Source: a virus. Taken from it: a DNA stretch of 20,806 nucleotides. Shown here piece after piece: positions 1 to 20,509 of this stretch (the first letter of the stretch is position 1; every line of letters starts with the position of its first letter). The notes under the pieces are model-generated. The model had not been told where the DNA came from. It ran no database searches and saw only the letters and a list, made by a program, of their open reading frames with translations. The stretch is taken from positions 1 through 20,806 of IMG/VR virus record IMGVR_UViG_3300010354_000849; one strand, written 5' to 3'. The translations under genes were made by a program, and so were the position numbers.

Positions 1-879
1 GCCATCGGCACAGGTGCTGGCATATTTGGCGCTTCCCAGGCAGATTCTGAGGCCCGCAAGGCAGCAGAAGCTCAGTTCAAGTACAGCAACCAAGCCTGGC
101 GTATGGGAAAGCGTCGGCTTAAAGCTGACTACCGCTTTGCCAAGAAGGGTACAAACATTCAACGCCAGAATGAAGAAACCTTAGGAGCATTCAAGGATGC
201 TACCAATCTTCAGGACTGGCAATACCAACTTAAGATTCAAGACTTTGAATACGCCTCTCAGATGAGGCAATATGCTAAGTCACAAGAGCTTTATGGTCAG
301 CAGCTATCTTACAACAACATGGCAGCAAGTGCTGCTAAAGAAGCTGAGATGCGTCGTCTTGAAGATGCTACCAATGAGATTGCCTTTCAGAATCAAGACA
401 TTGTTATTAAGGCAATGGAGTCTGAAGGTGCTGCTGCTGTTAAAGGTCAGCAAGGTCGCAGTGCAGGCAAGAGTGATCAAGTTGTACTTGCCTCTCTTGG
501 TCGTAACCAAGCAATCCTCGCTGAGTCACTTCTCAGCGCGAGAGGTGAAACTCAAGCTGCATTGAAGAAAGTTGCTGCCGATAAGTTCGGTGCTGATATC
601 GCAGCAGAAGCTGCACGGATGCTCAAGCCTGAGCGTCTACCTCAGCCGCCTAAGCCTCTCAAAACGCCTCGTGCTGTCTTCCAGGATCCCCGTAAGCCTA
701 AGAGGTTTGACTACGGTCCTAAGCCCATTATGGGTGCTGTGGCGTCGTCTATGCCTGGAGCCATCACGAGTGGCCTCACTAGCCTCGCTGGTGGTATTGC
801 AGCCTTTGCTGAAGCCAATAAATCTCCAGCTTATAGTTTCAAAGATTATTCCAATATCTTTAAGCCTCAAGGAACGTAA
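1..879 (+). CDS. Internal virion protein, T7 gp14 position (5' partial)
   Basis: The reading frame is open from base 1, so the gene starts upstream; the first in-window ATG at 103 is probably internal. About 292 residues are visible. They open with a Gly/Ala-rich hydrophobic stretch (IGTGAGIFGASQA), followed by a long Gln/Ala/Glu-rich helical part typical of podoviral internal core proteins. Then come a Pro/Lys-rich linker (near residues 205-240 of the visible part) and a second Gly/Ala hydrophobic stretch (GAVASSMPGAITSGLTSLAG) near the end. T7 gp14 is an ejected protein that forms the outer-membrane pore of the DNA-ejection conduit; that role is inferred here from the composition and from the order of genes (gp14-, gp15- and gp16-position proteins, then tail fibre). 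The stop and the next start share one base (TAATG). Full length and true start cannot be seen. Confidence 0.82.
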   Translation, partial: AIGTGAGIFGASQADSEARKAAEAQFKYSNQAWRMGKRRLKADYRFAKKGTNIQRQNEETLGAFKDATNLQDWQYQLKIQDFEYASQMRQYAKSQELYGQQLSYNNMAASAAKEAEMRRLEDATNEIAFQNQDIVIKAMESEGAAAVKGQQGRSAGKSDQVVLASLGRNQAILAESLLSARGETQAALKKVAADKFGADIAAEAARMLKPERLPQPPKPLKTPRAVFQDPRKPKRFDYGPKPIMGAVASSMPGAITSGLTSLAGGIAAFAEANKSPAYSFKDYSNIFKPQGT

Positions 880-3833
880 TGGATCAAGTAAACTACAAAG
901 GGTACGCCCGGAGTGTTGGTTTCGATCCTGTTAAAGCTCCCTATGCTGCTCTCCAACGAATGGAGGAGCGCGACTCACGTATCCTACGGGGTATGGAGGA
1001 TAATAGGCGAGCTGTTAAACAGGTTCGTGACGAATACGGTGCTGGACTAGAACGTAAGTTCAGCCTAGAAGACCGCAACAGAAATGAGAACTATAGCCTC
1101 TTACAGAAGTACAGGGAGAATCGTGCATCTGCTGTGGAGGCTAATGCAAAGACAATCATTCAAAATCACCTAGAACGATCTAAGTCTATCCAAAATACAA
1201 TGGGTAGTCTTGCAAAGTTCAGTGACACCATTTCTTCTGCTCTGATGGACTTCCAGAAGGGTAAGAACGAAAGTGATATGAAGGCTGGCTATATGGAAGC
1301 AGCATCTGGTGGATTCACCCTTGAACGCCAGACAGCTGTTGCACAAGGTGAGACAGTACTTCAAACAGCAGGTGAAGCACAGGATCGAGTCGCAGAGAAC
1401 TTCCAAGCTGTTGGTGCTCCTGCTGATGTAGTCATGGGTCTCATGACTGGTAATAAGTGGAGAGACTATGGTCGTCTCAAAGCTTATTGGGATATGAATG
1501 TAGGTGAGTTCTCTGGCTATGCCCAGTCCAAACTCACTGAGATGGGAGCCATTACTGCAGCTGATCGTCAAGCTGCAATGCCAGACATCTTTGAAGGATT
1601 CATCCGAGATAAAGGTTTGTTCGGCCTGAAGGCTGACTTCCTGGCAGAAGGCCTGATCAAGATGCGTGGCCAGTACAACGCTCTTGTGGATGATGCTCGC
1701 AAGTCTGATGTTGTTAATCAGTCTCTTGATATGAGAGACGAAGCAATGGAGAATCTCTTCCGTTCCAAGAGCGGTGATGCATTCTCTGAGGCTCTTCGTC
1801 TTACTGCACGTACCTATGCCGAAGATGGTAAGACCCCTATCGGTCTAGGTAAGGCCCGAGCCATGCTCTACAAGGAGCTTGGTGATACCACTCGCTACAC
1901 CGAACAGGATGTTGAGCGGATCCTTTCTGGTGCTATGACTGATAACGGTCAGAGCATGAAGGATCGCTTTGGTCGTGATTATGATGATCTCATCAATACT
2001 CGTCGTAAGGATGCAGAAGCTGAGTTCTCCCTTAATCAGGCAGAAGAACGTCAACAGCAGAAGGCTGCCGAGAAGTCTCTCCTTAAGTGGGTAGACGAGA
2101 ACTGGGATGGTTCAGCTAAGACACTTAATGACATCATTAAGGAAGCTGAAACCAAAGGCATCCCAACTGATCGCCTGAAGGCTCACCTAGCTCGCAGCAA
2201 TGAGCAGAAGAATGCTGACTTCTGGAAGGAGCAGTTTGACTCTGCCTACGATCAAGGTACACTGACTCTTGAGGATGTAGACCAGCCTGGTGTTCCTTGG
2301 GAAGTCCGTAAGGAATATCGTGAACGCGCTCAGGAACAAGAGCGTCTTCGTGGTGAGTCTGGTATTAAGCAAGAGACCATCAAGGGTGAGTTACAGGACC
2401 TTATCAAGTCCAAGCTTGTTGGTGAGAGCACAGATCGTGCAGCTCACTACAGTGCTAAGTCTGCTACTGACTATGCCCTCCGTCTCTACAACAGTAAGTT
2501 CAAGCAGTACTCCAAAACAATGGAGCCTGCCCAAGCTGCTGCTCAGGCACGCAACGATGTGTTGAATGCTATTGAGAAGGGTACAGGTGCATTCAAGGTG
2601 ATCGGCTCTGCCGATGCCAAAGGTACACAGGCTTTTTACGGTGCCTTCACTCCTGGTAAGCATCCTGGTGCTCCTCAGGCCCTGGATATTATTGATGCTT
2701 CCTCTGTGCTGCGTCAGGTCCGTACTAACCCATCCCTGGTGGATAAGAAGGTTCTGACTAGTCCTGGTCTGCTGCAAGACATTGCTAATCGTATTGATAA
2801 CGGCAAGCCTTTCTCTATCCCGACTATCTACGCTGATCTTGCTAAGCCCCTTGGTAAGACACCTACAGAGATCCTTAATGCTCAGCTGAAGGCAGCTGGC
2901 CATACAGCACAGGTCCGTCCTGGCTTCCGTGAAACTCTGAATCAGATTCAAGATCCACGTCTTCGTGCCATCTTGGATCAACCTCTGACACAAGAGCGTC
3001 TCAATAGCGTCATCATTGGTAGTGGTAATGCACCGGCTACTGTACGTACAGGCTCTCAGGGCTACGCTGATGTTATCGCCCTAGGTACTGCTGCTGGATT
3101 CAAGTTCCCGCAAGCAATGGCTGCTATGTGGGCTTTGGAATCTGGTTACGGTAAGTACCACTCCAACCCCAATAACGTCTTCAATATCAAAGATCGTCGT
3201 ACTGGTCAGTTCAAGAGCTATGCATCGCCTCTTGAGTCAGCTAAGGACTTTATGTACCTAATGACTGACCCTAAGTATGCACCTGCTCTGAACGCTGCTA
3301 AGACCCCACGTCAGTTCATTGAAGGCATCGCTATGACCTATTCGGGTCAAGAGCGTGACTATGCCTCAAAGATCCTACGTGTGATGCGTGATAACGGTGT
3401 TAACCCTGATCAACCGTTTAACAATAACCCGAACCCTGCCCGTAATAACGGCTTCATGCGGCCTACCCTTGCTTACATCACAAGTGATATAGGTCCTACC
3501 TCTACTGGTGAGCATCTTGATGTTAAGGATGTAACTGGTAAGCGCTTTGCTGAGAATGCACTAGACAATTTTGTTGAGATCCAAGATCCTCAATTCGGTC
3601 GTATTTCTCTTGGCGCTCTTAAGAAGAAACTACCTGGCAGGGGGGACAACTTTGATGAACACGTAGCACGTGGGTCTCATGGTATTGACTACCCTACCGC
3701 AAAGGGTACTAAGTTATTTATTAAGAATGGAGCTAGGATTATTAGCAAAGCTCGCACTGCCCATGGGGATAAGGTTGTCATTCAACTCCCCGATGGACGA
3801 CGTTTCAGTTTCCTACATGGTAATGCCGTATGA
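879..3833 (+). CDS. Internal virion protein, gp15 position, with glucosaminidase and M23-like domains
   Basis: This is a 984-residue protein. Residues 1 to about 720 are largely charged, helical and of unrecognised fold, as expected of an ejected core protein. Residues about 728-837 form a FlgJ/endo-beta-N-acetylglucosaminidase-like domain: the WALESGYG motif places the catalytic Glu at 754, followed by NNVFNIK. Residues about 856-984 resemble an M23 (LytM-type) metallopeptidase with GPTSTGEHLDV (His879), SHGIDY (His934, Asp937) and FLHG (His980), in an unusual order (see findings). By position it corresponds to T7 gp15, which is ejected into the periplasm. The cell-wall domains suggest it opens peptidoglycan during DNA entry, a task that in T7 belongs to the transglycosylase of gp16. 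The start is supported by AAGGA about 10 bases upstream; the 3' end overlaps the next gene by ATGA. Confidence 0.87.
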   Translation: MDQVNYKGYARSVGFDPVKAPYAALQRMEERDSRILRGMEDNRRAVKQVRDEYGAGLERKFSLEDRNRNENYSLLQKYRENRASAVEANAKTIIQNHLERSKSIQNTMGSLAKFSDTISSALMDFQKGKNESDMKAGYMEAASGGFTLERQTAVAQGETVLQTAGEAQDRVAENFQAVGAPADVVMGLMTGNKWRDYGRLKAYWDMNVGEFSGYAQSKLTEMGAITAADRQAAMPDIFEGFIRDKGLFGLKADFLAEGLIKMRGQYNALVDDARKSDVVNQSLDMRDEAMENLFRSKSGDAFSEALRLTARTYAEDGKTPIGLGKARAMLYKELGDTTRYTEQDVERILSGAMTDNGQSMKDRFGRDYDDLINTRRKDAEAEFSLNQAEERQQQKAAEKSLLKWVDENWDGSAKTLNDIIKEAETKGIPTDRLKAHLARSNEQKNADFWKEQFDSAYDQGTLTLEDVDQPGVPWEVRKEYRERAQEQERLRGESGIKQETIKGELQDLIKSKLVGESTDRAAHYSAKSATDYALRLYNSKFKQYSKTMEPAQAAAQARNDVLNAIEKGTGAFKVIGSADAKGTQAFYGAFTPGKHPGAPQALDIIDASSVLRQVRTNPSLVDKKVLTSPGLLQDIANRIDNGKPFSIPTIYADLAKPLGKTPTEILNAQLKAAGHTAQVRPGFRETLNQIQDPRLRAILDQPLTQERLNSVIIGSGNAPATVRTGSQGYADVIALGTAAGFKFPQAMAAMWALESGYGKYHSNPNNVFNIKDRRTGQFKSYASPLESAKDFMYLMTDPKYAPALNAAKTPRQFIEGIAMTYSGQERDYASKILRVMRDNGVNPDQPFNNNPNPARNNGFMRPTLAYITSDIGPTSTGEHLDVKDVTGKRFAENALDNFVEIQDPQFGRISLGALKKKLPGRGDNFDEHVARGSHGIDYPTAKGTKLFIKNGARIISKARTAHGDKVVIQLPDGRRFSFLHGNAV

Positions 3834-6800
3834 CACAAACCCCATTTGTTGATGAAGAGGAGCTGAAGCGGCTTGAAGCTGAGAACAAGGCTCAGGAGGA
3901 AGCTCTAGATGCAGCTGCTCCTGAGTACAACGCTCAGAGTGCTAATCAGACTCAATTCAAAGAAGCTACTCCTCAAGAGAACAAAGCTGCTGGCAATGTT
4001 GAACCTGTTAAAGGTGCAACGAATCAAGCAATTGCTCAGTTGGTACCTGGCAATAACCAGAACCAACCTACAGAACAAAAGCCTCTGAACAAAGGTTCTG
4101 GCTTCCTCTACGGTAGTGGTGATGCTAATGCCACTCTTGCTGAGGATATCGGTAAGTATGCCACTGGTGTCTTTGAAGGTCTTGGCGCTGCTGGCATGGG
4201 CCTTATTGACTTTGGCCTAGACGCTATTGGGCGTATTCCTGGTGCTGAACCTATTGATGATGGTTGGGATCAGAAGACTAAGTTCCAGAACCCTTTCTTC
4301 CAAAAGCTCCGCAATATTGCTTCTGTTGTTCTGCCAAGCATCATGTCTGGTGGTGCTGCTGGCGCTGCCAGTAATGTTGTTAAAGGTGGTGCCTTGGCTC
4401 GTGGTGCTACAGCCCTTGGTGTTGGTTCTGCTCTTGAGTCAGGCATTATTGCTCTGAGTGATCAAGGTACTGACGATAACCTGTCCACTATGGTTAAGGA
4501 AGCTGCTCCGTGGCTGCCTGTACCTGAAGCGATGGTTATCTCTGATGGCGATTCACCTGAGATTCGCCGTCTTAAGAACATCTATGAGAACGCTTCTCTT
4601 GGTGTTGTTGGATCTCTAGTCGGCTACGCCTTCCAGGCAGGCAAGCCTGTGATGGGTTGGTTCAAGCCGAGGGATCGTGTAGCTCAGGAGTTTATGTCTT
4701 CTGAGGTTCTCGTTAATGCTGATGCTGCTACAGCTACACGACTTTCTGAGTTGTCTACACAGTCTGAGCAACTGAAGACTGCTGCCACTGAAGCAGCTCA
4801 ACAGCTTGAGCAGGCATCACAACTTGGCGCTGACCCTCTGACTATCCAGCAGATGGCTGATCAGGTCATGGGATCCTCAAAGGCTGCTAAGGCCCTTGAT
4901 GATGAGGCTGCGGCTATCACTGAGGAATACGTCACTACGGGGGCTTCTAGGGTCACAGAGAACCCTGTAGAGAGCTACCTGGAGCGTGATCAGATTAGCC
5001 GTGACCTACAAATTGATGAGGTCGGCAAGGATCGTCTCTATGCTGACCCTGAAGGTGTTAATGGCGCGGACCCGTACATCACTCCTGCCCTATTCCCTGA
5101 AGGCTCTACTACAGCAATGAGTCGTACTCCTGGCAACAATGCTAGGAACATGGCTGATACGACTGCTATCAAGAGTGGTGGTAGCGAAGGTTCTCCTGCT
5201 CCGATGATGTCTGAGCGGGCTTATCAATCTCTCTCCCGTACACTTGACAACCCTGAAGGCTCTACGTATGCACGTAACCTTGTGATTGATCTAGCAGAGG
5301 AGACACGAGCTGCTGGTAACTTTGATGCAATCGTGGATGGCTTCCGCTACACACGTCAGCAGATGACAGATGCAGCGTTTGAGATCTATAAGGACATCAT
5401 CACTGCACGTAGTGTTGACGACGTTAAGAAGCTGTTCCTTGATAACCGTGACGTTAAGAACATCCTTGATGGTCGTAAGATCAAGTATATTAACGATGTT
5501 CAAGCACAGGCTGTTGCCTATGCGATGCGTGACTTGACTGATAAGTATATCGGTCGTGTTGTTAACGAGACTTCCGCTCGTGCCATGGATACCACTGGCC
5601 GTGAGATCTCTGACATTGCAGAAGCCTATAAGACCTTCCCTGAGTCTGCAGACTTTGACCGTACAACCGAAGCAATTGCTGATCGTATTGCCTTCCTGAT
5701 GGAGGAGTACGCTCTTAACAAGTATATCGCTGGTTGGGCACTCAAGAACCAAGATCGTTGGGAAAAGGTTGTTAGTAAGTCTGGTAACCCTGAAGAGGCT
5801 ATCAAAGGCATTACTAAGCAGTTTGATCTGAAGCTGAATGAAGCCAAGCTGAAGTCACAGAACTATCGCAACATGATTGTGACTGTTGCTAAGGAGCGTC
5901 CTGATGCAGCACAGGTTCTGATCGATGCATTCGCTATCACCAAGGGTGATGTGGATACTATCGACAAATTGATGAAGTGGACGGCTAAGCAGGTCAGCCC
6001 TATGGGTCTTCTAAGGGGAGACAGCGATGGTCTTAACTTGTTTGCCCAAGGTGTCTTTGCTATTCGCTACAGCGGGATGCTGAGTGGTCTTTCACTACTC
6101 AAGACAGGTGTGGCAAACATGACTGTCTTAGGTCTTCGTACCACTAACTCGTTCCTTGGAACTGGTATGGGTATGTTGATGGGACGCAACACTGTTGATG
6201 ACCTACGTAAGGCTACCCATGTCTATGGGTCCATGTGGTCAGTTAACAACAAGGCTCTGAAGGATTCCTGGGAGACCTACAAGAAACTCTGGAATGCTGG
6301 CAAGTGGGGCAATGACTTCAAGATGGATGCCCGGATGCTTGCCCGTGAGGATCTTGTTGATTACGTGGCTCCTGATAAGTGGGAAGCTCTTGCCAAGATG
6401 GAACCCATCTGGGAGAAGAATGGTGACTGGGGCAAGCTCATGCAATACCGCACATCACGTCTTCTCTATGACTTGGGTAACTGGCGCTGGCATAAGTATG
6501 GAACCAATGGTTTGATCTCTGCTGATGCCTATATGTCCACTACGGTAGCTCACCAGTTGGCCAAAGCCCGTGCATGGGATGAGGTGTCTTCTATTGGCTA
6601 CAAGGGTGCAGAGCTTGAGCAGCAGATGCTTAAGGCAGAGAAGATGGCCTACGACGAGATGTTTGATTCAGCTGGCAACATCACTGATGATGCACTGAAG
6701 TATGTCTCTGGTGAGCTTTCAATGAACCTTGATGATGCAACTGCATCTTGGCTCAGTAATGGCCTTAATAAGCTTCCCTTCCTGAAGGGGTTCTTCATGT

Positions 6801-8089
6801 TCCCTACCACTGGTGTGAATGCAGCTAAGTACGCTATGTCGTACACGCCCATTGCAACTATTCCTGGCGTGAATCGCTATGCCAAGGTTCTCTGGGCTGG
6901 TGACAACATGGACCTCATTAAAGAGGCCCTGTTGGAGCATGGCATTACATACGATGCCGTACCTAACGGTATGGCTATCTACAAGGGTCTTGAAGCTGAA
7001 TACCGTGGTCGTCTTGCCTTTGCTGGTCTCTTGACTTCTGGTCTGATGGGTCATGCCCTTAGTGGCAAGATCCGTGGTAATGGTCCTGAGAACAAAGGTG
7101 AGCGTAAGAAGCTGCGTGATAACTTCAACTGGCAGCCAAAGACCATCAATATTGGTGGTAAGTGGGTTAACTATGCCGGTATCGAACCGCTAGATACTCT
7201 CCTTACTCTTGTGGGAGACCTTGCTTACTACTCTCGCGATCTTGGTTCAACCCTCACGGAAGACTTCGGTAAGAAAATTCTGTGGACTCTCTCAGCTACT
7301 TTCGTCAATAAGACATGGACTGCTGGTCTTGAGCCGCTAGTCGCTATCGCCAATGGTGATGAGACCGCTATCTCGCGTTACCTTGCTAACGAAGCACGTT
7401 CAGTGATCCCCTGGAGCAGTGGTCTTGGTGTTGTCAATAACGCTATTACTAGCTCCCAGAAGGATATCTACAATGACATGATCGGATATATCAAGAACCG
7501 TATTCCTGGCCTAGCTAGCACTCTTCCTGAGCAGATTGATATCTACACAGGTAAGCCGCTCAACGACATTGATAATCCTGTCCTTCGCGCACTCAATGCT
7601 GTTAACCCAGTAAAGGTTAGCGACGGTACTGAACCCTGGCGTCAGTGGCTTATCGATAGTGGTTGGGACGGTATCCAGATGATTCGTAAGGATAGCTCTG
7701 GTAATCATGAGTACACACCAGCTGAACGTGAAGTGCTCTACCGTTACATCGGTGAGCAGCAGATCTGGAAAGAGTACGACAAGATTAGCAAAAATAAGAA
7801 GTACAATGATCAACTGGATCGCATTCGTGCAATGCGAGCACAGGGTCGTCCTTCTGATGAAATCAATGCCGCCTATGTTGAGGTACATGGCGTTCTGAAT
7901 GATGTACTCGTCAAGGCACAGAAAGCCGCTGAGATGAGGCTTCAGAATGAGAATGAACCGATGTGGCGTGGTATTCAAGAATCCATCCGTAATAAGAACT
8001 ATCTGAATCAAGGTCGTGTCGATGATGCAGCTCGTGCTGCTGATCGTCGTAAGGCTGAGATTGAAAAGCTAACGCAAATGTATAGGTAA
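3830..8089 (+). CDS. Large internal virion protein, gp16 position
   Basis: This 1419-residue protein is the largest gene in the window and is close in length to T7 gp16 (1318 residues), whose genomic position it shares. The first ~90 residues are Gln/Asn/Glu-rich and probably disordered. Hydrophobic or amphipathic Gly/Ala-rich segments lie near residues 110-130, 163-208 and 254-268, and again near 743-790 and 1063-1079, which could insert in the host inner membrane. The C-terminal ~100 residues are highly charged and helical. I see no lytic-transglycosylase motif at the N-terminus, unlike T7 gp16; the muralytic domains are in the preceding gene instead. The likely role is forming the inner-membrane part of the ejection channel, by analogy with T7. 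It starts within ATGA overlapping the previous stop, indicating translational coupling. The family assignment rests on size, position and composition rather than on a clear motif. Confidence 0.83.
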   Translation: MTQTPFVDEEELKRLEAENKAQEEALDAAAPEYNAQSANQTQFKEATPQENKAAGNVEPVKGATNQAIAQLVPGNNQNQPTEQKPLNKGSGFLYGSGDANATLAEDIGKYATGVFEGLGAAGMGLIDFGLDAIGRIPGAEPIDDGWDQKTKFQNPFFQKLRNIASVVLPSIMSGGAAGAASNVVKGGALARGATALGVGSALESGIIALSDQGTDDNLSTMVKEAAPWLPVPEAMVISDGDSPEIRRLKNIYENASLGVVGSLVGYAFQAGKPVMGWFKPRDRVAQEFMSSEVLVNADAATATRLSELSTQSEQLKTAATEAAQQLEQASQLGADPLTIQQMADQVMGSSKAAKALDDEAAAITEEYVTTGASRVTENPVESYLERDQISRDLQIDEVGKDRLYADPEGVNGADPYITPALFPEGSTTAMSRTPGNNARNMADTTAIKSGGSEGSPAPMMSERAYQSLSRTLDNPEGSTYARNLVIDLAEETRAAGNFDAIVDGFRYTRQQMTDAAFEIYKDIITARSVDDVKKLFLDNRDVKNILDGRKIKYINDVQAQAVAYAMRDLTDKYIGRVVNETSARAMDTTGREISDIAEAYKTFPESADFDRTTEAIADRIAFLMEEYALNKYIAGWALKNQDRWEKVVSKSGNPEEAIKGITKQFDLKLNEAKLKSQNYRNMIVTVAKERPDAAQVLIDAFAITKGDVDTIDKLMKWTAKQVSPMGLLRGDSDGLNLFAQGVFAIRYSGMLSGLSLLKTGVANMTVLGLRTTNSFLGTGMGMLMGRNTVDDLRKATHVYGSMWSVNNKALKDSWETYKKLWNAGKWGNDFKMDARMLAREDLVDYVAPDKWEALAKMEPIWEKNGDWGKLMQYRTSRLLYDLGNWRWHKYGTNGLISADAYMSTTVAHQLAKARAWDEVSSIGYKGAELEQQMLKAEKMAYDEMFDSAGNITDDALKYVSGELSMNLDDATASWLSNGLNKLPFLKGFFMFPTTGVNAAKYAMSYTPIATIPGVNRYAKVLWAGDNMDLIKEALLEHGITYDAVPNGMAIYKGLEAEYRGRLAFAGLLTSGLMGHALSGKIRGNGPENKGERKKLRDNFNWQPKTINIGGKWVNYAGIEPLDTLLTLVGDLAYYSRDLGSTLTEDFGKKILWTLSATFVNKTWTAGLEPLVAIANGDETAISRYLANEARSVIPWSSGLGVVNNAITSSQKDIYNDMIGYIKNRIPGLASTLPEQIDIYTGKPLNDIDNPVLRALNAVNPVKVSDGTEPWRQWLIDSGWDGIQMIRKDSSGNHEYTPAEREVLYRYIGEQQIWKEYDKISKNKKYNDQLDRIRAMRAQGRPSDEINAAYVEVHGVLNDVLVKAQKAAEMRLQNENEPMWRGIQESIRNKNYLNQGRVDDAARAADRRKAEIEKLTQMYR

Positions 8090-8095
8090 CACCTA

Positions 8096-9640
8096 ATGGC
8101 TGTCACTCAGAATACATATACGGGTAATGGATCCACCACCAATTACTCTTTCACTTTTCCATATCTTGAGACGACCGACATCAAGGTTTCCTTGAACGGT
8201 ACGGTTACAACTGCATACACTCTGGCTAACGCTACCACTATCCAATTCAATACGGCCCCGACTACCGGGGCTGCTATTCGGATCTATCGGGAAACTGATG
8301 ATTCTGGATTGGCAGCCACCTTCTACCCAGGTTCTGCTATTCGATCTCAGGATCTGAATGAAAACTTTACTCAGAATCTCTACGTTACTCAAGAGTCTAA
8401 CCGAGAGGCCTCGTCAGCAACTAGCACGGCTAACACTGCACTGACGAACTCCAACACGGCAATCAGTACGGCCAATGCAGCCACTGCAACGGCCAACACT
8501 GCCTCCAGCAATGCCTCTGCAGCAGTATCAACGGCCAATACGGCAAGCACTAACGCCAGTGCTGCTGTGTCTACGGCCAATACTGCATCCACCAATGCAA
8601 CGGCTGCTGTAAATACCGCAAATAGTGCTGCTGCTGATGCGGCTACAGCTATTTCAACAGCTAATAGTGCAGTCACTACGGCAAATGCTGCTACAGCAAC
8701 GGCTAATGCAGCCTCTGCTACTGCAACTACAGCCTCAACCAATGCGAGTGCTGCTGTTTCTACAGCCAATGCTGCGACAACCACGGCTGGTAACGCAGTT
8801 ACAACAGCTAATAATGCTGTTACTACCGCCAACAGTGCAGTCACTACTGCAGGTAATGCAGTCACTACAGCCAACAATGCTGTGACGACGGCAAACAGTG
8901 CTGTGTCAACGGCTAACTCTGCCGTTACTACTGCTAATGCTGCTGCATCTGCTGTTGCTAATGCGATCTTGTATGACACGGTTGCTAATGTTGCTGCAAT
9001 TCCTGCGACACCATCGAACAATGATGCAGTTGAGGTTGTTAATTCGACTGGTATTCAAAGCTTTACACCGCTGAATGGCCTTCCTTCTGGCTTTGTCGGT
9101 GATTCGGGCCTTAGTGTTCGCCTTATTTATACAACGTCTGGTAATACCTGGAACTGGATTCAATATTTTCCTAATGATCCAGAGAACCGTTATGGGGATG
9201 CAATCACAACACTGCAGACTGATCTGAATGCTGCAGAAGCGGACATTCTTGCTTTGGATTCAGCCAAGCTGGATGCAACTACTGCTGCGTCTACTTACCT
9301 TACTCAGGCCAATGCTGCGTCTACCCTCGCCTCGATCAACAACACTTCCCTCACCGGAACTTCTTTGATCAATGCGGCAGGCATTGCTACTTGGGTTCGT
9401 TTCTCTGACTCTGATGCCAGCCACTACATCGGTCTACAGTCTCCTTCTGTAGTCACTTCTAACTTCACCTTAACTCTACCTGCGACTGCTGGAGCTGCTG
9501 GTCAAATCCTTTCTACAGATGGTACTGGCAACCTTAGTTGGGTGAATGACATTGTTGTTCTAGTCACTGATGGCGGTAACTTCGATAACGGAACCAGTAC
9601 TGTATCTACTTCTCAGACTCTTGATGGAGGTCAATTCTAA
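8096..9640 (+). CDS. Tail fibre protein with T7 gp17-type N-terminus
   Basis: This is a 514-residue protein. Residues 1-105 match the T7 gp17 N-terminal attachment domain by eye: TYTGNGSTTNYSFTFPYL, a LNGT strand, then AIRIYRETD and IRSQDLNENFTQ. That domain anchors the fibre to the portal/nozzle of the tail. Residues 108-290 are Ala/Thr/Asn/Ser heptads forming a probable trimeric helical stalk. After this comes a distal region with an LPSGFVGDSGLSVRLIYTT stretch, a further helical segment near 375-420, and a beta-rich end containing LPATAGAAGQILSTDGTG, a motif common in phage fibre tips. The start has an AGG about nine bases upstream. It lies six bases after the gp16-position gene, as in T7. 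Receptor specificity cannot be read from the sequence. Confidence 0.93.
   Translation: MAVTQNTYTGNGSTTNYSFTFPYLETTDIKVSLNGTVTTAYTLANATTIQFNTAPTTGAAIRIYRETDDSGLAATFYPGSAIRSQDLNENFTQNLYVTQESNREASSATSTANTALTNSNTAISTANAATATANTASSNASAAVSTANTASTNASAAVSTANTASTNATAAVNTANSAAADAATAISTANSAVTTANAATATANAASATATTASTNASAAVSTANAATTTAGNAVTTANNAVTTANSAVTTAGNAVTTANNAVTTANSAVSTANSAVTTANAAASAVANAILYDTVANVAAIPATPSNNDAVEVVNSTGIQSFTPLNGLPSGFVGDSGLSVRLIYTTSGNTWNWIQYFPNDPENRYGDAITTLQTDLNAAEADILALDSAKLDATTAASTYLTQANAASTLASINNTSLTGTSLINAAGIATWVRFSDSDASHYIGLQSPSVVTSNFTLTLPATAGAAGQILSTDGTGNLSWVNDIVVLVTDGGNFDNGTSTVSTSQTLDGGQF
8417..8966 (+). repeat. Heptad-repeat stalk of the tail fibre
   Basis: About 183 codons of degenerate 21-base repeats encode heptads of the form AVTTANN / AVSTANT. 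Higher-order copies are visible: a 14-residue unit (AAVSTANTASTNAS) occurs about three times near the start. A 21-residue unit, made of heptads ending AGN, ANN and ANS, occurs twice near 8785-8910. Synonymous codons differ between copies, so the protein repeat is better conserved than the DNA repeat. It is predicted to be a trimeric coiled stalk whose length can change by unequal recombination. Confidence 0.85.
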
Positions 9641-11613: not shown

Positions 11614-11811
11614 ATGATCACTATTCTTGGTATTAAAGTGTCCTATGAGGCACTTGCTTTTCTTGCCCTCTTTATTGGCTCCGAAATTGTCGGTGCTTCC
11701 AACCTTAAAGAAAATGGAATTGTCCAAATCATCCTTAGCGGTATCAATGCTCTGAAGCCGCTCCGTAAGGAAGACGATCAGATCCAACGCATTAAGGATA
11801 CATTCAAATGA
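11614..11811 (+). CDS. Small membrane-anchored protein, lysis cassette (holin candidate)
   Basis: A 65-residue protein with one hydrophobic segment (about residues 10-27, YEALAFLALFIGSEIVG), followed by an amphipathic stretch and a charged basic/acidic tail (LKPLRKEDDQIQRIKDTFK). Similar small proteins occur next to lysins in cyanophages. Its place directly upstream of a glucosaminidase lysin, with a four-base ATGA overlap, makes a holin or lysis-accessory role reasonable. However, a single membrane segment with this tail is not diagnostic. There is no Shine-Dalgarno sequence before the ATG; the 40-base gap upstream is AT-rich. Confidence 0.7.
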   Translation: MITILGIKVSYEALAFLALFIGSEIVGASNLKENGIVQIILSGINALKPLRKEDDQIQRIKDTFK

Positions 11812-12371
11812 GTATCAAGCTCCTTGACGTTATTCGTAACTACAAGGGGCTACCTCATCAAAAGCAAGCCATTGAGTCCCTAGAGAAGCTCCTAGGGGCT
11901 TATGGTTTGTCCGATGATGTGGAGTGGGTGAAACTTTGGCGTACTCCTACTCCTGTAGCTCCTCAACAATTTACTAATACCTGGGAAGGTATTGAAGCTG
12001 CAGCACGAGCTGCTGGTGCTAAATTCCCTGAAGTAGTCGCTGCTCAGTGGGCACTTGAGAGTGCATATGGTACTGCCCTTAGTGGTAAGAATAACTTCTT
12101 CGGTATCAAAGGTACTGGCACTGTTAAGACCACTTGGGAAGACTATGGCTATGGTCCTGTGACCATCAAAGCTTCCTTCAAAGATTTTGCTACTCCCTAC
12201 GACTGCGTTGAGCATCTTGTGACGCAGTGGTACAAAGATTATAAAGGCTATAAAGGCGTCAACCGAGCCACCTCTCGTGAAGACTGTGCATACCTCCTTA
12301 AGAAAGAAGGTTATGCGACAGATCCAGTCTACGCACAGAAACTAATTCGGTTGATGGAGCAAAATGATTGA
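11808..12371 (+). CDS. Glucosaminidase endolysin
   Basis: A 187-residue cell-wall hydrolase. Residues 1-45 contain an LxxxxNYKGLPHQxxAIxxL motif that I associate with cyanophage and cyanobacterial proteins linked to glucosaminidase domains. Residues about 55-187 form a FlgJ/endo-beta-N-acetylglucosaminidase domain (glycosyl hydrolase family 73-like). WALESAYG carries the putative catalytic Glu84, followed by NNFFGIKG and, near the end, a LLKKEGYATDPVYAQKLI segment typical of the family. It would cleave peptidoglycan glycan strands at lysis. No signal peptide is visible, so export would need a holin. AAGGA lies upstream of the start; both ends overlap their neighbours, placing it in a tightly coupled lysis operon. 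Confidence 0.9.
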   Translation: MSIKLLDVIRNYKGLPHQKQAIESLEKLLGAYGLSDDVEWVKLWRTPTPVAPQQFTNTWEGIEAAARAAGAKFPEVVAAQWALESAYGTALSGKNNFFGIKGTGTVKTTWEDYGYGPVTIKASFKDFATPYDCVEHLVTQWYKDYKGYKGVNRATSREDCAYLLKKEGYATDPVYAQKLIRLMEQND

Positions 12372-12853: not shown

Positions 12854-13088
12854 TTACTACAAAAGCAACCCTACAGCTAAAGCCAAAAGGCTGAAGCAAC
12901 AAGCTGAATACAACAAGACCAAGGAAGGTCTCAAGATTCGTAGCAACGCTAACAAGCTAAATAGGAAGCTTGGTACCTATGGTAATGGGGATGGAATGGA
13001 TGCCAGTCACACTGGTCCTAATAAAGGAAAACTAGAGTCCCCTAAGGCGAACCGTACACGTCCGCGTAAGGGAAAGAAGTATGCCTAA
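12834..13088 (+). CDS. Small basic conserved cyanophage protein
   Basis: An 84-residue, very basic protein (start MASRTSNYYKSNP). Its second half has a conserved-looking GTYGNGDGMDASH stretch, then a Lys/Arg-rich end (NRTRPRKGKKYA). I recognise the DGxDxSH-type motif from small phage proteins but know no function; the basic charge suggests nucleic-acid binding or virion association. The ATG at 12834 was chosen over the upstream in-frame TTG at 12816 because AGAGG stands four bases before it. It overlaps the small terminase by 20 bases and the lysozyme by eight. Confidence 0.75.
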   Translation: MASRTSNYYKSNPTAKAKRLKQQAEYNKTKEGLKIRSNANKLNRKLGTYGNGDGMDASHTGPNKGKLESPKANRTRPRKGKKYA

Positions 13089-13683
13089 TCCACTAGCAAT
13101 TCTTACCAATACAACTGCACGTGACAGTCTAATTAAAGCCTTTGAGGGGTTTGAGCCAAGAGCGTACCCAAGGCCTGAGGGTGGTGGTTTTGCATATGGC
13201 TATGGATTTAATTTTGATACATCTGGAAAGGATGTATCCCCTCAGGCAACCATCACCAGACAACAGGCTGATCCGCTTCTGAAAGTGAAAATTGATCAAC
13301 ATGCATCGCAGGTTAGGCAGGATCCTGGCTACAAAAAGCTATCTCCTAATGCACAAGCAGCTGTTGAATCCTTCGCCTTCAACGCTGGTCCGAACTTCTT
13401 TGGTGCTTCAAATTTCCAGACACTTACTGATGCAATCAAGTCCGGTAACGACAAGAAGGTAGCAGAGGCTCTGAAGCTCTACACCAACGGTGGTGTGCCT
13501 GGTCTTGTACGGCGACGTGAAGCTGAGGCAAGGCTAGCCACTACTCCTTACATGTCTCCTAAGAACAGCACCCTTGCTAACGACCGTACCCGTAAAGACG
13601 GTACAAAGGCAGTCAAACAAGGAAAGCCTGTTACCTGGGATGCTGCATCTAAAAAATGGAAACCAGCAATGACTATCCGGTGA
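13081..13683 (+). CDS. GH24-like lysozyme (muramidase endolysin)
   Basis: A 200-residue protein with the architecture of T4/P21-type lysozymes. It has an N-terminal FEGFEPRAYP motif (Glu22 as catalytic acid), then GFAYGYG, a central VESFAFNAGPNFFGASNF block and GLVRRREAEARL near residue 150, all landmarks of the family. A ~45-residue Lys/Asn-rich C-terminal tail follows (PVTWDAASKKWKPA near the end). The usual Asp nine residues after the Glu is Arg31, and the usual Thr is replaced by Phe or Ala (positions 37-38), so catalysis may differ. No signal-anchor is seen, so a holin is needed for access to the wall. AAGGGA stands upstream of the ATG. It is the second lysin in the cassette. Confidence 0.86.
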   Translation: MPNPLAILTNTTARDSLIKAFEGFEPRAYPRPEGGGFAYGYGFNFDTSGKDVSPQATITRQQADPLLKVKIDQHASQVRQDPGYKKLSPNAQAAVESFAFNAGPNFFGASNFQTLTDAIKSGNDKKVAEALKLYTNGGVPGLVRRREAEARLATTPYMSPKNSTLANDRTRKDGTKAVKQGKPVTWDAASKKWKPAMTIR

Positions 13684-16554: not shown

Positions 16555-17091
16555 ATGAGTCCACCAACCTTTGTTACAGGCTCTCAGAGAAGCGGTACAA
16601 CAATTACTGCAGTCATACTTGCTTCTGACCATAATCTCTCCTTTGTTGATGAAGCTGAGTTCACTCCAGGTGTCAATTATGACGACTGTGTAGTTCACTT
16701 GCCATATGCCTTGGATGGTTATGTGCTGTTACACCACATGTACCCATCTGCTCACTTCATTGTTGTGACTAGAGATAAGGCAGACATCATCCGCAGCATG
16801 AAGCGTATTCATTGGTGCCAAGACAACGTACAAGACTGGGAACAGTTCCTTGATGACTACGTTGACCAACGTCTTCAGCTTATCGACAACCTTGCAAGGT
16901 ATATCCCTAACTCTGTGACTCTCTTCCCTTATAAGTCCTTAGAGACACACCGTCTTTTTGTTTCTAATAGAGATGGTTTTACCGTGAAGCAATGGAAAGC
17001 TGATATGCCTCGTGGTCCTCAGTATTGGCCAGATAACTTTCAATGTATATCCGATTATTATGCAAGACGTTCTCAAGTCTCTCCAGGGTGA
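16555..17091 (+). CDS. Compact sulfotransferase-like protein
   Basis: A 178-residue protein with the two PAPS-binding signatures of sulfotransferases. An N-terminal P-loop-like FVTGSQRSGTT (residues 6-16) would be the 5'-phosphosulfate loop. FIVVTRDKADIIRSMKRI (residues 68-85, Arg73 and Ser81) would be the 3'-phosphate motif. LFPYKSLETH near 123-132 corresponds to the usual YEDL region. Known family members are usually 250-350 residues; here only about 55 residues separate the two motifs, so the protein is compact or has lost its acceptor-binding insert. The reaction would be transfer of sulfate from PAPS to an unknown acceptor. It starts after a terminator without a Shine-Dalgarno and overlaps the terminase gene. 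It is probably a horizontally acquired accessory gene. Confidence 0.72.
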   Translation: MSPPTFVTGSQRSGTTITAVILASDHNLSFVDEAEFTPGVNYDDCVVHLPYALDGYVLLHHMYPSAHFIVVTRDKADIIRSMKRIHWCQDNVQDWEQFLDDYVDQRLQLIDNLARYIPNSVTLFPYKSLETHRLFVSNRDGFTVKQWKADMPRGPQYWPDNFQCISDYYARRSQVSPG

Positions 17092-20198: not shown

Positions 20199-20224
20199 GC
20201 CCTTGTAGGTCAATCCTGAAGGGC
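20199..20224. terminator. Possible bidirectional terminator between convergent genes
   Basis: GCCCTT and AAGGGC pair exactly, with inner AGG/CCT pairing around TCAAT, and the flanking GAG/CTC can extend the stem past a bulged G. It sits right after the stop at 20197 and contains the stop codon of the convergent minus-strand gene. No strong T run is visible on either strand, so function as a terminator is uncertain. Confidence 0.42.
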
Positions 20225-20509
20225 TCGTTCTAATAGGTAAGCGATTAGGTTGCTTAGACTTCTTCCTTCTTCGTCACTTCGTTCATCTAGTGTTTGTCGT
20301 AAGGACCACGGGATAGTGACAGTGACACGGGATGGTTTCCGTGTAAATACTGAAGGGAAGCTTTGGTTTTTACTTCCCTGGTGGAAATTGTTGGAGAATG
20401 CGGTCATCAGTTCAATTGCGGTTGGACTGGTCACGGGGTCGGTTGTTGACGCAACGCGGCCCCACCTATGCAGCATATCACCTGAAAAATTTTGACATAA
20501 TTTTCTCAA
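20210..20509 (-). CDS. Ribbon-helix-helix (CopG/Arc-type) protein, antisense to the late genes
   Basis: The C-terminal ~38 residues (RVTVTIPWSLRQTLDERS, then EEGRSLSNLIAYLLERAL) are a clear ribbon-helix-helix unit: a beta strand that would insert in the DNA major groove, followed by two helices with the conserved GRSLSNL turn. Such short proteins are frequent in cyanobacteria and their phages as DNA-binding repressors or antitoxin-like factors. The first 60 residues of the longest frame have no recognisable fold; the start is uncertain and could be the ATG at 20476 or the ATG at 20407 (65 residues). It is the only convincing minus-strand gene here, convergent with the thyX unit, so it is probably transcribed separately, with its promoter in the hairpin-rich region to its right. 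Its target is unknown. Confidence 0.68.
   Translation of the reverse strand: MRKLCQNFSGDMLHRWGRVASTTDPVTSPTAIELMTAFSNNFHQGSKNQSFPSVFTRKPSRVTVTIPWSLRQTLDERSDEEGRSLSNLIAYLLERALQD

Follow-up and report, generated by a model that had tools for sequence, protein, structure and literature searches.

The window, i.e., the whole stretch of DNA that was analysed, is a 20,806-base virus-record fragment of a T7-like cyanophage, and it encodes a T7-type terminase and the N-terminus of a T7 tail fibre. Three successive genes concern us here. The first (103..879, +) encodes a gp14-like protein, matched to the internal virion proteins of PHROG 15746 (E 5.6e-8), the second (879..3833, +) a gp15-like internal virion (ejection) protein of 984 aa, and the third (3830..8089, +) a gp16-like large internal virion protein of 1419 aa, which is positioned as in P60 gp34 and DSL-LC07. 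The gp15-like and gp16-like genes overlap at the stop of the former and the start of the latter, and the gp16-like product has no Pfam match. In Synechococcus phage P60, genes in this order carry internal virion protein annotations, and the gp15-like gene is placed between the tail tube B/gp14-like and gp16-like genes on the basis of how P60, DSL-LC07, and S-SRP01 are ordered and annotated. The gp15-like protein belongs to PHROG 24152 across its whole length (E 0), and its orthologues in P60, S-CBP1, and DSL-LC07 carry the annotation internal virion protein.

Several other genes of the window deserve mention. At 8096-9640, the tail fibre N-terminus is followed by a long T/A/N/S-rich repeat, which is TANxA-like and alanine-zipper-like. 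There are two further lytic genes, one for an endolysin-like glucosaminidase (11808-12371) and one for a GH24 lysozyme (13081-13683), bringing the glycan-cleaving domains of the fragment to three altogether. An ORF of the sulfotransferase family (16555-17091; Pfam Sulfotransfer_3, E 4.1e-11) adjoins the terminase gene and is a possible auxiliary gene. A ribbon-helix-helix (RHH_5) protein is encoded at 20210-20509 on the minus strand, opposite to the other genes.

In the gp15-like protein, Pfam recognises only a glucosaminidase domain (PF01832, residues 744-839, 3108..3395, +, E 2.7e-11) and leaves the last 129 residues without a match. PHROG 24152 is listed with unknown function, and the C-terminal domain is not described there. 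On the evidence of sequence, profiles, and predicted strand order, this C-terminal domain (residues 856-984, 3444..3830, +) is a circularly permuted M23 domain of the LytM/lysostaphin type. It opens with a block that corresponds to the end of a canonical M23 domain, namely two strands with an STGPHLHFE-like motif (residues 863-883, 3465..3527, +), in which His879 takes the place of the first His of HxH and Asp881 that of the second. A linker of about 45 residues (884-927, 3528..3659, +) with an LDxYVxV strand and short helices then joins the old C-terminus to the old N-terminus. The beginning and middle of canonical M23, from the HxGxD strand to the YxHL strand, come last (residues 929-984, 3663..3830, +), and the chain terminates just past the YxHL-type strand. 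The motif order is thus the one given in an earlier note on this DNA: GPTSTGEHLDV (His879, Asp881), then SHGIDYPTAKGT (His934, Asp937), and then GDKVVIQLPDGRRFSFLHG (His980). The domain shares with M23/LytM/lysostaphin (PF01551) the homologous strands, the HxGxD-like, YxHL-like, and GSTGPHLH-like blocks, and the two water-activating histidines. It differs in its rotated order, in a Ser for the His of HxxxD, in an Asp for the second His of HxH, in scoring below the Pfam cut-off, and in the absence of the hairpin that lies between YxHL and the GxSTGPH block; this hairpin was looked for at the start of the next gene (3830-8089), and none was seen there.

A phmmer search of the PDB with the window domain returned only weak M23 matches, made through the C-terminal block (E 0.34). 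Among single family members, Pfam M23 matched 8 of 16 and 8 of 10 in two sets (best E 1.3e-4), the matches of the latter set always covering profile positions 2-51 of 96 and ending near the protein C-terminus. The best score of a family member was 22.5 bits against a gathering cut-off of 28.7, and the window sequence gave no match. A profile of 30 members likewise met the ordinary M23 domain of cyanophage S-RIM44 by its C-terminal half only (E 2.2e-6). With a profile of 14 homologues, the M23 protein 5kqb was matched weakly (E 0.12 overall) in two stretches of swapped order, where profile positions 85-118 correspond to chain residues 28-61 and positions 10-40 to residues 96-125.

The permutation is best seen with a doubled profile, in which an alignment of 15 canonical-order M23 domains from cyanophage, Thermus phage, and PDB sequences is written twice in a row (222 positions). 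The window domain gives a single alignment over the junction (29.0 bits, profile 94-176 of 222), and all 33 domains scored, 30 podoviral and three from the S-TIM cyanophages, span the junction with 19.7-59.9 bits, the highest being that of S-TIM54, as against a best score of 10.1 bits among 3000 shuffled podoviral domains. One could suppose that there is no permutation at all, and that a partial M23 domain, the N-terminal half only, is preceded by an STGxHLD block that arose by chance. The first block of the window domain indeed adds only 2.2 bits to the score, and when the residues ahead of the HxGxD-like block are shuffled, 14 of 200 trials for the window alone match the real score. For the 30 podoviral and three myoviral domains together, however, merely 35 of 6600 such shuffles do so; hence the HxH-like block is convincing for the family, though not for the window sequence by itself, and chance was rejected at the level of the family. 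The STG.HLDVK-type block is moreover invariant, AlphaFold2 predicts a single confident globular fold, and the S-TIM domains, strong in both halves and with full ligands, are colinear with the podoviral ones, all of which makes a chance block very unlikely. An assembly or sequencing artefact, for which no supporting point was found, has a negligible chance of being the explanation, as the identical order occurs in more than 150 contigs and it is refuted by the isolates P60, S-CBP1, and DSL-LC07.

The cyanomyoviruses S-TIM5, S-TIM66, and S-TIM54 (Aurunvirus) provide the connecting form, a permuted M23 domain with complete canonical ligands. Their motifs run HLHxE (or HAHIE), then HxGxD, then AHL; the series in S-TIM66, for example, is GNTGGSTGPHLHAEI ... 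ELDKYITIGG ... KIHQGID ... FLAHL. The permuted order and the LDKYITIGG-like linker are shared with the podoviral domain, whereas HxxxD and HxH are intact, and the domain is internal, with Phage_lysozyme2 further on, in a myoviral baseplate-type protein annotated only as virion structural protein. In hhalign comparisons, the podoviral family is colinear with the S-TIM domains over 106 columns (probability 97.0, E 1e-10). The S-TIM domains align with doubled M23 across the junction (probability 99.1, E 1.6e-18) and with a single M23 profile as two separate halves. The permutation proposed in the earlier note is therefore borne out by the doubled profile and by these S-TIM domains, which with their intact ligands connect the podoviral family to true M23. 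No further S-TIM-like permuted domains were found beyond Aurunvirus in IMG/VR and phage records; the S-TIM and podoviral domains, aligned together, proved too diverse to serve for scanning. S-TIM5 also has an extra M23-like stretch (residues 430-464, L184:9415-9519, Pfam profile 45-79) upstream of its permuted domain. This stretch could be what is left of a duplication; alternatively, an insertion may have separated it from the permuted domain, and it would then be the hairpin that the latter lacks.

The AlphaFold2 model of the window domain (pLDDT 91.4, pTM 0.86) agrees with this layout. Its predicted strands follow the order F-G-linker-A-B-C-D-E, as against A-B-C-D-E-F-G in a canonical sibling of S-SRP01 type; the predicted order is that of M23 in rotation, rather than one of a fold unrelated to M23, which the earlier note had named as a refutation. 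Foldseek, which compares sequentially, found no M23 match for the window model in the PDB (best E 1.5), while the sibling, used as a control and modelled at a pLDDT of 70.9, gave 45 PDB matches at E <= 0.001; lysostaphin, LytU, EnpA, ShyA, and LytM head the list, in which the cyanophage A4 pre-ejectosome, EnvC, and DipM also figure. Against viral models, the window model met S-TIM5 H6WFX6 with no change of order (TMq 0.66, probability 1.00, E 0.015). The search also returned the BFVD match A0A510E7V3_3. His879, Asp937, and His980 would, to judge by the alignment to M23, cluster in one site, as the note had supposed.

In LytM, the zinc ion is bound by His210, Asp214, and His293, and the water is activated by His260 and His291 (PMC4594094). 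The alignment equivalents of the ligands are Ser933, Asp937, and Asp881, respectively, and those of the water-activating residues are His980 and His879. The His/Asp/His ligand set thus reads Ser/Asp/Asp in the window domain, and both water-activating histidines are retained. Among 95 distinct podoviral domains, His879, Asp881, Lys883, His928, Arg931, Ser933, Gly935, and Asp937 are invariant (95/95), and His980 (3816..3818, +), whose role is taken from LytM His260 (PMC4594094), is invariant in the 92 domains long enough to reach it. The family therefore has, without exception, a Ser for the His of HxxxD (Ser933, 3675..3677, +) with the Asp kept (Asp937, 3687..3689, +), and HxD for HxH, the Asp in place of the second His being the change already remarked on in the earlier note. 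That note also took the first His to be one position off, which does not hold. The His position of HxxxD is Ser933, and position 934 varies among the 95 homologues (H 64, Y 19, F 11, N 1); His934 was consequently rejected as a shifted zinc ligand. His928 and Arg931 have newly become fixed, and a candidate for the replacement ligand is the invariant His928 (3660..3662, +). With dN/dS of about 0.06-0.18 in close pairs, the permuted domain is under strong purifying selection, and the change of the podoviral site is an orderly replacement rather than decay.

An ordinary M23 domain may occupy the same place. The orthologue of Synechococcus phage S-SRP01 aligns end to end with the window protein (25%, E 1e-53) and has the same glucosaminidase, followed by an ordinary M23 domain that exceeds the Pfam cut-off (37.3 bits). 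In S-SRP01 and 14 further ORFs of this type, the M23 domain lies at the C-terminus, in the same position and likely with the same job as the window domain, but with ordinary order and ligands (HEGND, AHL, GPHVHLE). A classification of 172 long ORFs yielded 152 permuted, 15 of the S-SRP01 type, and five unrelated proteins, two of them S-TIM, counts that are not frequencies because the loci were mostly fetched using the permuted domain. An unrooted tree of the protein body, compatible with either direction of change, places the canonical rows in a single group (99/99) among the permuted ones. Two scans for relatives in bacterial or archaeal genomes, with an insensitive short-pattern first step, found none.

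The known M23 domains without zinc ligands, such as those of EnvC and DipM, are non-catalytic regulators, and the degenerate LytM domains of EnvC, NlpD, and DipM regulate amidases and other autolysins. Like those of EnvC, NlpD, DipM, and ActS, the window domain has a predicted M23 fold with zinc ligands replaced; they, however, are cellular regulators of ordinary order, and it is permuted and phage-borne. It is quite possible that catalysis was lost and that the permuted M23 relative binds peptidoglycan or regulates the neighbouring glycosidase. Ser933 and Asp881 replace two of the three zinc ligands in every copy, degenerate LytM domains are already known as a kind, EnvC and DipM are among the Foldseek matches of the canonical sibling, and the permuted domain is always C-terminal to another lytic domain where one is detectable. 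A pure binder, on the other hand, need not hold both water-activating histidines, Asp937, and His928 in 95 of 95 domains, and an apparently active M23 domain takes the domain's place in S-SRP01. Cleavage is slightly favoured because the polar set is invariant down to about 35% identity and because of this active-type M23 in S-SRP01, and we lean towards a rebuilt metal-dependent hydrolase that would cut peptide stems by means of Asp881, Asp937, and probably His928. The same invariant residues (Ser933, His928, Asp937, Asp881, His879, and His980) could also suggest an M23-like fold turned into a non-metal hydrolase, e.g., with Ser933 as nucleophile and His and Asp around it. This is improbable, as Ser933 may be merely structural, and we know of no precedent for a Ser-nucleophile hydrolase in the M23 fold.

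The lytic partner that precedes the permuted domain is variable. It is a glucosaminidase in the group of the window and in two other loci (L136, L140), an SLT transglycosylase in L131 and L114, and a weakly matched Phage_lysozyme2 in P60 (L022); some relatives of the window protein have no detectable lytic partner. The glycosidase is swapped wholesale between relatives (P60 L022, L131, L114). Neither P60 nor DSL-LC07 yielded an ordinary M23 domain in the rest of its genome. An M23 domain in a cyanophage ejection protein has a likeness in the pre-ejectosome internal protein of cyanophage A4 (PDB 9k2v), which is matched as ordinary M23 by sequential search and is, as far as the match shows, unpermuted. 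The variation of the partner and the lack of another M23 in P60 and DSL-LC07, together with the T7-like gene order, suggest that the permuted domain is an ejected, peptidoglycan-directed module working with the glycosidase, by analogy with T7-like biology and the A4 pre-ejectosome and from gene position and domain pairing. The gp15-like protein would travel inside the capsid and enter the periplasm on ejection; there, the glycosidase (in the window, the glucosaminidase) and the permuted domain would act jointly on peptidoglycan and so admit the DNA conduit. Taken as a whole, a permuted M23 domain with an altered zinc site that serves as a peptidoglycan-directed ejection module is the best explanation, and we regard it as likely.

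The domain also bears marks of recombination. Identity between the window protein and those of two other loci (L017, L018) falls from 86-94% at residues 720-855 to about 49% at 881-960 and rises again to about 90% at 961-984. The pattern is reversed with L005 and L001, the identity being 47-68% at 720-855 and 86% at 881-960. The stretch 881-960 (window 3519-3758) is 86% identical to L005, L001, and L026, whose flanks are mostly 21-68% identical. On these identities, the centre of the permuted domain (residues 881-960) appears to have been exchanged by recombination, the linker lying in the middle of the recombined stretch. The S-TIM5 (L184:8128-11121) and S-TIM66 (L185:926-3982) proteins are 98-100% identical, and their permuted M23 domains only 42-72%, suggesting that these may be a swapped cassette. 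Both patterns imply that, in each of two unrelated groups of phages, the domain was exchanged or has diversified. What drives the exchange is a matter of guesses, a match to host wall chemistry or an inhibitor being two of them. More tentatively, and rather doubtfully, the rebuilt centre (Asp881, Asp937, and His928 with His879, His980, and Ser933) could define, within the M23 fold, a peptidoglycan hydrolase of a new catalytic type, kept at one ejection-protein position and exchanged by recombination, perhaps for matching host walls or escaping a host inhibitor.

M23 is among the commonest folds of peptidoglycan peptidases. A search of the literature open without subscription found no description of a permuted M23 or LytM domain, and the podoviral permuted M23 domain with uniformly replaced zinc-site residues seems to be a hitherto undescribed form of this very common enzyme family. 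Owing to the permutation, profile searches and order-dependent structure searches leave such proteins, present in many cyanophages, without a functional label. The S-SRP01 domain (ordinary M23), the S-TIM domains (permuted, zinc site intact), and the podoviral domains (permuted, site altered and invariant) form a graded natural series, with which three things become testable: the tolerance of the fold for permutation, the function of the altered site, and the way in which cyanophages open the wall when they eject their DNA.
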